NCBI RefSeq assembly: GCF_018905915.1
Contig: NZ_CP064782.1
Location: forward strand, 992,001-1,056,000
Source of the DNA: Azospira inquinata
Lineage (GTDB): Bacteria; Pseudomonadota; Gammaproteobacteria; Burkholderiales; Rhodocyclaceae
DNA: 64,000 nucleotides
Direction of reading: 5' to 3'
Shown: in pieces, positions 30,994 to 51,388 of the stretch
Numbering within the stretch: the first letter of the stretch is position 1
How the letters are laid out: each line of letters begins with the position of its first letter
Translations under genes and position numbers: made by a program
Notes under the pieces: generated by a model
What the model was told of the DNA's origin: nothing
What the model saw: the letters and a program-made list of their open reading frames with translations, nothing else
The model's database searches: none

Positions 30994-31462
30994 GCGCTTA
31001 ACCCGCCGAGCAGGAAATCCCTAGCCCTCAGCCGCCCTTTAGACTCCTTTAGGCAAAAAAAAACGCGACTCACGAGGAGTCGCGCTAAATCCACACCAAA
31101 GGAGGAGGGTGGAGGAGACAAACAGTGGAAGTACGAACAACCGGTTTGGCTGCTATCCGCACTTCGGTCAGTTTCATTATTGACCAAACTCAAACCGGAG
31201 GCAAGAATTTTTTTGTGCAACGCACCAGCGCCCATTTTTCCTCAAGCGGGCCCGTGCCCGGAAAGCCAGTTTCCGTTTTTATTTTGCCGGGCTCCCCTTA
31301 TAGCAAGCCCAGGCACTTAGACACACCGCCTTGACCAACCATACGTTGCCGTATCTTTTTGTGCGGCGCACAACACCGCCCCACCAGGCTCCAGAACCCG
31401 AAAATTCGGGGGACCGGTAAAATGAAGCACCTTTACCCTTTACCAACAGAGAGCCGATAACA
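30994..31462. other. Intergenic region between rplM and the osmC-type gene
   Basis: No protein gene that I can support. It contains the candidate small RNA (minus, 31055-31169) with its promoter and terminator, and from about 31205 to 31462 the upstream region of the OsmC gene. That region includes a short inverted repeat ATACG-TTGC-CGTAT near 31343-31356 and a TTGACC at about 31331 that may be part of its promoter. Confidence 0.5.
31055..31169 (-). ncRNA. Candidate small RNA upstream of rplM with C-rich anti-SD-like stretch
   Basis: A free-standing minus-strand unit. It has a possible promoter (TTGCCT at 31199-31204, 17 bases, AATAAT at 31176-31181). The terminator is perfect: CGCGACTC (31064-31071), loop ACGAG, GAGTCGCG (31077-31084), T9. 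The RNA would be about 115 nt and carry CTCCTCC-ACC-CTCCTCC (about 31102-31119), complementary to Shine-Dalgarno sequences. A 30-codon reading frame (ATG 31177, ending LVWI) is possible but would begin inside the -10 box. rplM has its own promoter downstream, so this is not simply its leader. Boundaries are approximate. Confidence 0.55.
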
Positions 31463-49441: not shown

Positions 49442-50458
<1,017 letters not shown>

Positions 50459-50537: not shown

Positions 50538-50565
50538 GGAACTTTTCCCCCGGCTCCCCATCTCA
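50538..50565 (+). promoter_or_regulatory. Sigma-E-like (ECF) promoter upstream of the small RNA candidate
   Basis: GGAACTT (50538-50544), 16 bases, TCTCA (50561-50565). The -35 element matches the Escherichia sigma-E consensus exactly and the -10 approximately. The start point would be about 50571, where the first hairpin begins. No good sigma-70 boxes are seen in the same place. Confidence 0.5.
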
Positions 50566-50570
50566 CCACA

Positions 50571-50669
50571 AGATGGTTTACACCGTCTCCCGCTTTACCT
50601 CCCTGAGCGGGTGCCTTAATCACCTTAAGGCATTTTGCCCCCGGTTACCCCTTTGCCGGGGGCTTTTTT
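50571..50669 (+). ncRNA. Candidate small RNA: four consecutive hairpins with C-rich loops
   Basis: About 99 nt, almost wholly hairpins: HP0 AGATGGT/ACCGTCT (50571-50588, one G-U pair); HP1 CCCGCT/AGCGGG (50589-50611) with loop TTACCTCCCTG; HP2 TGCCTTAA/TTAAGGCA (50612-50632) with loop TCACC; HP3 GCCCCCGG/CCGGGGGC (50637-50663) with loop TTACCCCTTTG, then T6. The loops of HP1 and HP3 share TTACC and are anti-Shine-Dalgarno-like. HP3 with its T-run is a terminator only in the plus direction, though no plus-strand protein gene ends here. The last hairpin overlaps the antisense end of engB. Confidence 0.65.
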
Positions 50670-51388
50670 ATTTGTCCCCTCTGTACCACCGCCCGTTTGC
50701 CACCAGGCGCATGGCGGGAATTGCGTTTGGCGCCGGCAGCGCTCCGGGCCGAACGAATCGGCCGGGGCGCCGGGGCGGGTTTCGCCTCGGGGATCTCCAT
50801 GCCCAGCCACTGGGCGATCAGGGCTTCCGCCTCCTCCACCCCCAGCTTTTTCAGGCTGGAAAAAAGCTGCACCGTACACCGTTCCCCCAGGGACGCCAAG
50901 GCCTGGCGGACCTGACGCAGGGCCAGGGTCTGCTCCTGCCGGGTCAGCTTATCCGCCTTGGACAGGAGAATATGGATGGGCTTGCCAGTGGCGCCAAACC
51001 AGTCAATCAAATGCTGGTCCAGGTCGGTAAGGGGATGGCGGCTATCCATAATGAGCACCAGGCCCACTAGGGGCGCCCGCTCTTGCAGATAGGGGCCGAG
51101 GAGGTTTTCCCACTGGCTGCGGATTTCTTCCGGGGCCTTGGCGTAACCATAGCCGGGCAAGTCCACCAGATATTTGCCTTCGGCCAGGGTGAAATAATTG
51201 AGGTTCTGGGTCCGCCCCGGGGTCTTGGAGACAAAGGCCAGCCGGGTCTGATTGGCCAGGGTATTGATAGCCGAAGACTTGCCCGCATTGGAGCGTCCGG
51301 CAAAGGCCACCTCGCCGGTGGCGTCACCCGGCACATCCCGTAATTGGGCCACCGTGGTGAAAAATTGCGCTTTCTGAAACAACGCCAT
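50645..51388 (-). CDS. engB: Ribosome-biogenesis GTPase YihA/EngB
   Basis: 247 residues from ATG 51388. G1 GRSNAGKSS (31-39), G3 region DLPGYGYA (from 76), G4 LSKADKL. The family ends near residue 200; this protein has an extra basic Pro/Arg/Lys-rich tail of about 45 residues (PAPAPRPIRSARSAAG...KKPPAKG), probably flexible and RNA-binding. EngB helps 50S assembly and is essential in many bacteria. The stop lies inside the terminator hairpin of the plus-strand small RNA candidate. Confidence 0.93.
   Translation of the reverse strand: MALFQKAQFFTTVAQLRDVPGDATGEVAFAGRSNAGKSSAINTLANQTRLAFVSKTPGRTQNLNYFTLAEGKYLVDLPGYGYAKAPEEIRSQWENLLGPYLQERAPLVGLVLIMDSRHPLTDLDQHLIDWFGATGKPIHILLSKADKLTRQEQTLALRQVRQALASLGERCTVQLFSSLKKLGVEEAEALIAQWLGMEIPEAKPAPAPRPIRSARSAAGAKRNSRHAPGGKRAVVQRGQIKKPPAKG

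Follow-up and report, generated by a model that had tools for sequence, protein, structure and literature searches.

A conserved RpoE-type promoter precedes anti-hemB, a small RNA with constant C-rich loops encoded between hemB and engB

In a 64,000-nucleotide stretch of Azospira inquinata DNA (contig NZ_CP064782.1, positions 992,001 to 1,056,000; hereafter the window), a small regulatory RNA lies between two housekeeping genes, hemB and engB. The RNA is a Rhodocyclaceae (Azospira-like) member of an already known but barely studied Rfam family, RF02837 (anti-hemB), and in many of its relatives a promoter of the RpoE (sigma-E) type is conserved upstream. We consider it likely that the RNA is driven by sigma-E and acts in trans, its C-rich loops masking ribosome-binding sites. 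The features of the locus, numbered from the first nucleotide of the window, are as follows.

49442–50455, minus strand: hemB, divergent neighbor, not overlapped by the RNA
50538–50544, plus strand: -35 element GGAACTT, sigma-E type
50561–50565, plus strand: -10 element TCTCA, after a 16-nt spacer
50571–50588, plus strand: HP0, 5′ hairpin at the putative transcript start (about 50570–50572)
50586–50671, plus strand: match to Rfam RF02837 anti-hemB
50589–50611, plus strand: HP1, with the nearly invariant, putatively anti-Shine-Dalgarno loop UACCUCCCU
50612–50632, plus strand: HP2, with loop UCACC
50637–50669, plus strand: HP3 (50637–50663) and T6 (50664–50669), an intrinsic terminator with ACCCC in the C-rich HP3 loop
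50645–51430, minus strand: open reading frame of engB (yihA), convergent neighbor whose last codons overlap HP3; the true start is probably at about 51388 (MALFQKAQ)

The arrangement on which the original prediction was built, GGAACTT-N16-TCTCA followed by four hairpins and six T residues, is present in the sequence. The four predicted hairpins abut almost without unpaired bases, and the minimum free energy of positions 50560–50680 is -47.8 kcal/mol, compared with a mean of -27.3 (sd 2.8) for shuffled versions (z = -7.3; none of 200 shuffles folded equally well). HP3 with T6 was correctly described as a plus-strand terminator at a place with no plus-strand protein gene, the frames listed on that strand being taken for chance frames. 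That description needs one correction, as about 25 nt of the RNA, comprising T6, the 3′ arm of HP3 and most of the HP3 loop, lie opposite the final codons of engB.

The RF02837 covariance model matches at 77.6 bits (cut-off 49.5) over its full length (positions 1–81 of 81), and hemB and engB flank the RNA as in the family. Of 300 genomes of the order, 190 have a match above the cut-off and 232 have one at E 1e-3 or better. The corresponding counts are 79 and 91 among 101 genomes of the family, and 10 and 89 among 185 genomes sampled across the class, where eight of the 10 are outside the order. A pattern scan for GGAACT..TCTNA together with exact HP1 returned at least 120 genome stretches; among the 80 matches listed, most are betaproteobacterial (Nitrosospira, Thauera, Azoarcus, Aromatoleum, Dechloromonas, Methylovorus), and a few are assigned only to Proteobacteria or Gammaproteobacteria.

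Conservation bears out the sigma-E-like promoter of the original prediction. Within 118 places (58 loci and 60 further places), we scanned positions -72 to -19 relative to the Rfam start. The strict motif GGAACTT-N15..17-TCTNA occurs in 31 (shuffle mean 0.01), the relaxed motif GGAAC-N17..19-TC[TA]NA in 67 (shuffle mean 0.14) and GGAACT in 81 (shuffle mean 3.06). Control windows further upstream contained no strict or relaxed motif and GGAACT in 1 of 116, and downstream windows none of the first two and GGAACT in 4 of 118. Among the 67 loci with the relaxed motif, the spacer is 16 nt (42) or 17 nt (25), and the -10 element is TCTTA (28), TCTGA (13), TCTCA (11), TCATA (10) or another sequence (5), with TCAAA rare (2 of 67). 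When 89 sites were aligned on GGAAC, the next base was T in 89%, the spacer was near random and a TC-type -10 appeared again. In its GGAACTT -35 and the conserved TC-type element that follows at 16–17 nt as the -10, the locus has the hallmarks of a sigma-E promoter. Its -35 is the same as that of micA and rybB, given as GGAACTTTT with a -10 of GTCAAA (PMC1804206), whereas the agreement between GTCAAA and TCTCA is only partial (TCTCA fits TCNNA). The relaxed motif is absent from 51 of the 118 places, among them three f31 loci, which are probably Burkholderia-type in view of their likeness to the Rfam consensus; a fourth f31 locus carries GAACTT-N16-TCATA further upstream. As promoters at the f31 loci are weaker or of another type, control of the RNA may differ between lineages.

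Azospira has a canonical RpoE of its own, whose DNA-binding regions match; the protein scores 322.8 bits against TIGR02939 (cut-off 236) and closely resembles the sigma-E chains of E. coli (61.5% identity over its length). The motif is not enriched in this single-contig genome of 3.28 Mb, with two strict sites versus seven in the reversed control and six relaxed sites versus 17, nor is the strict motif enriched over 13 genomes (27 versus 44 reversed). The above-chance signal is thus conservation across relatives. Each of three genomes of the same genus contains only two strict sites, one of which is the promoter of the small RNA. Besides the promoter in the window, the Azospira genome has one strict GGAACTT-TCTNA site (contig C1, 1448454–1448481, minus strand), just upstream of a frame that, by eye, is cytochrome c-like. 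The genome's own rpoH lacks the motif, and no GGAAC motif was found upstream of its rpoE. In one relative, rpoH is preceded at 39 nt by a strict site, the sole recognized sigma-E target among 20 further sites inspected, and a relaxed site precedes rpoH in 7 of 29 genomes, a count made without a shuffle control. In several of the rpoH upstream regions (L285–L313), a GGAAC-type -35 is accompanied at the -10 by TTAGCACTC, which we take to resemble half a CIRCE operator; this combination suggests joint control of rpoH by sigma-E and HrcA.

The hairpins do not all behave alike. In an alignment of 36 sequences, HP0 changes on both sides at all seven of its pairs while 96% of cells remain paired, and both-sided changes occur at seven of eight pairs in HP2 and five of seven in HP3. 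The covariation score is 0.304, compared with 0.140 for shuffles and 0.044–0.068 when partners are slid, as expected of the structured RNA gene that the original prediction proposed. An unforced consensus fold returned the same HP0 and HP1, together with part of HP3 and all of HP2 except the outermost pair. HP0 lies almost wholly outside the Rfam match, with only its last 3 nt inside; a script that looked for a stem adjoining HP1 gave scores of 5 or more for 82% of 116 sequences, versus 8% of shuffled segments. HP1, in contrast, is nearly constant. Its stem is paired in 100% of cells and four of seven pairs never vary, CTCCCT is present in 115 of 116 sequences and CCTCCCTGAGCGGG in 108 of 116, and CCCCTT occurs in the 3′ part of the RNA in 89 of 116. 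The C-rich loops noted at the outset are borne out as constant by these counts, and such loops together with stems that covary elsewhere form the pattern expected of a trans-acting anti-Shine-Dalgarno RNA. It is curious that in HP1 the stem as well as the loop scarcely changes across the order, whereas the remaining stems covary. Pairing may extend into this stem, or a protein may read it.

The RNA most likely acts in trans; how might it work? In our model it has its own gene, about 100 nt long, which RNA polymerase with an RpoE-type sigma factor would transcribe from GGAACTT-N16-TCTCA; the transcript would begin at HP0 and end at the HP3-T6 terminator. Envelope stress would free the sigma factor and the RNA would be made. 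The exposed CCUCCC loop of HP1, with the likewise C-rich HP2 and HP3 loops assisting, could then pair with purine-rich Shine-Dalgarno regions and so block translation of selected mRNAs. When the Azospira genome was searched for AGGGAGGTR-N-ATG, there were nine hits at eight places, versus three in the reversed control, and about two are plausible as ribosome-binding sites. These two precede frames that are HoxY-like and DnaJ-domain-like by eye, neither a convincing target. At the start of the sole Porin_4 gene, no strong complement was seen by eye.

Other members of the family have been described in Burkholderia. ncS04 of Burkholderia cenocepacia is an RF02837 member of 105 nt, its start mapped by dRNA-seq and its 3′ end by RACE, with a Northern blot panel; its neighbor genes are oriented as in the Azospira window and it reportedly binds Hfq, as judged by co-purification (PMC5688073, PMC4603805). 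Since 105 nt exceeds the 81 positions of the Rfam model, this length fits a transcript that includes HP0. The Azospira RNA and its ncS04 kin share sequence, HP1 to HP3, the order hemB-sRNA-engB and a length of about 100 nt; the clear GGAACTT promoter and the covarying HP0 distinguish the RNA in the window. A listing of B. pseudomallei small RNAs includes anti-hemB (PMC3521395). Bc7 of B. cenocepacia is probably RF02837, going by the names alone ("Burkholderia RNA 7"), and a review gives hemB as its predicted target and RybB as a homolog, and nothing more (PMC6321483). In the literature searched, we found no mention of RF02837 by its identifier and no function for the family. Our searches, which left most subscription papers outside, also found no account in print of a sigma-E-type promoter, a covarying HP0, retention of the promoter in the absence of hemB or a link to polA and engB. 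The same holds for a probable shared origin with the small RNAs of the polA-engB locus.

Could the RNA instead be a constitutive, sigma-70-transcribed small RNA with the same anti-Shine-Dalgarno action, its likeness to GGAACTT being secondary? TA precedes the -10 in 16 of the 67 relaxed-motif loci, giving elements of the TATCTTA and TATCATA types that also resemble a sigma-70 -10. Expression data on ncS04 are compatible with constitutive synthesis. Its level shows no significant change in any of seven tabulated conditions (biofilm, stationary phase, starvation, glucose medium, osmotic stress, low pH and low iron) and is the same in log phase, and short stresses of B. cenocepacia, SDS and H2O2 among them, caused largely no induction. 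In B. cenocepacia these data argue against stress induction, which the original prediction had inferred. The -35 region points the other way, as GGAAC at 16–17 nt from the -10 in 67 of 118 places, with T as the next base at 89% of the aligned sites, is unlike TTGACA, and we regard a sigma-70 promoter as unlikely, if a serious alternative.

The family name implies a different role, as a cis regulator of hemB. Among the 118 places, in which some fetched stretches stop at contig ends, hemB lies upstream on the minus strand in 93 (84 with engB also on the minus strand as the other flank, nine without), and hemB is the predicted target that the review gives for Bc7. However, about 116 nt separate the hemB start codon from the start of the RNA, and the two genes are divergent and without overlap. 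In three places only engB is in the expected position, and 22 have neither expected neighbor; in 15 of these 22, engB is flipped and upstream. Although these 15 places lack hemB, 12 keep GAAC[TC], and eight GGAAC, in the promoter window, and three of the other seven keep such a GAAC element. The RNA and its promoter thus also occur as a unit without hemB, and hemB is beside none of the 20 matches from outside the order described below. We therefore find cis control of hemB improbable, and our results suggest that the name anti-hemB misleads. Direct antisense action on hemB we rejected on the grounds of synteny and the lack of overlap. It might also be argued that the element is mainly a terminator between the two genes, the other hairpins being incidental, as HP3 with T6 would serve well as a terminator and extends over the end of engB. 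Against this, wherever engB lies, HP0, HP1 and HP2 are either conserved or covarying, the promoter is conserved, and the homolog ncS04 is an independent transcript; this explanation we find barely credible. Since the stems covary and the distance between RNA and engB varies widely, we also rejected the idea that the hairpins are a by-product of engB codons; loss of the stems with engB codons kept, the outcome named beforehand as fatal to an RNA gene, is not what the alignments contain. A sigma-E-driven, trans-acting RNA is the reading that we carry forward.

Matches from outside the order place the family in a wider setting. We fetched 20 of the 23 best-scoring genomes, whose matches reach 43–58 bits (7 of 20 above the cut-off; L322 and L328 are near-identical). 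engB follows downstream in convergent orientation in 13 and is flipped in one; polA is upstream on the same strand in 11, within 180 nt in 10 and at 688 nt in one. Both genes are present in nine, at least one in 16 and neither in four, while hemB is in none of the 20 fetched stretches. polA was found near none of the 118 places within the order. Folding gave at least four hairpins in 19 of the 20 and at least two CCC loops in 18. GAAC[TC]-N16..18-TC[TA] lies upstream in 14 of the 20 (shuffle mean 0.18), as it does in 89 of the 118 places within the order (1.1 in shuffles).

The polA-sRNA-engB arrangement of these nine matches is that of Spot 42 (RF00021), as E. coli has polA (plus strand), spf (plus) and yihA/engB (minus). 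The RNA in the window differs in being flanked by hemB and engB. RF02837 did not find E. coli spf, which has its own model, and RF00021 did not find the window RNA, among matches up to E 1. Spot 42 is regulated by CRP. The sX13 RNA of Xanthomonas (RF02232) resembles the anti-hemB relatives in adjoining polA, in its C-rich apical loops and in its link to G-rich ribosome-binding-site motifs. Its model scores 20.2 bits on the window (cut-off 50), and at one locus outside the order (L326) anti-hemB reaches 47.3 bits (cut-off 49.5) and sX13 37.9 (cut-off 50), both below threshold. Encoded downstream of polA and bearing three C-rich loops, sX13 represses mRNAs with G-rich ribosome-binding-site motifs and functions without need for Hfq, and its authors compared its locus with those of Spot 42 and alpha-r7 (PMC3771888). 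The dispensability of Hfq sets sX13 apart from ncS04, which is reported to be Hfq-bound. ErsA of Pseudomonas aeruginosa, whose gene presumably lies by engB and polA, resembles our proposal, when compared by description only, in combining dependence on an RpoE-type factor (sigma-22) with action at ribosome-binding sites. ErsA is strictly sigma-22-dependent and, acting with Hfq, represses algC at its ribosome-binding site (PMC7565897, PMC6321483).

The original prediction had instead drawn a parallel with the Neisseria sibling RNAs. The NmsRs and RF02278 do share C/U-rich unpaired anti-Shine-Dalgarno stretches that act, or are predicted to act, on ribosome-binding sites. However, the NmsR promoters are sigma-70-like, unlike the sigma-E-type promoter here, and RF02278 scores only 23.5 bits on the RNA (cut-off 50). 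The nearest relatives we found belong to the polA/engB locus and are not the sibling RNAs of Neisseria.

We are evenly divided on a broader proposal, that anti-hemB, the polA-engB RNAs of other Gammaproteobacteria, sX13 and probably ErsA form one ancient, RpoE-type-driven lineage adjoining engB and bearing C-rich anti-Shine-Dalgarno loops, with Spot 42 a diverged occupant of the same locus, and that anti-hemB supplies a non-coding arm of the betaproteobacterial envelope stress response. The MicA-like RNA CT_532 of Bordetella, from a different locus, was reportedly unchanged on loss of RseA and so did not depend on it. The conserved RpoE-type promoter gives an orphan family a direct, testable likely function and links it to the better studied RNAs of the polA-engB locus.

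Some genomes contain additional copies. One genome of the order (G234; loci L071, L113, L114) has six RF02837 matches, and the four copies inspected, two of them in tandem, all lack a GGAAC promoter. Tandem copies also occur outside the order (L317, L324). Elsewhere in the Azospira genome there are two weak RF02837 matches (29.1 and 27.3 bits), one of which scores with several C-loop RNA families, all below their cut-offs, while the other, by eye, looks like a terminator only. The window itself contains a second candidate of a known family at 31055–31120 (minus strand), a double hairpin with UCUCCUCC-type stretches that matches RF02278 (Betaproteobacteria_toxic_sRNA) at 62.5 bits (cut-off 50). 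Finally, at about 912867–913170 of contig C1 (minus strand) lie two neighboring hairpin elements with C-rich loops that match ar14 and anti-hemB below threshold, one of them also matching 6C and Scr3202 below threshold. It is possible that this pair represents further sibling small RNAs.
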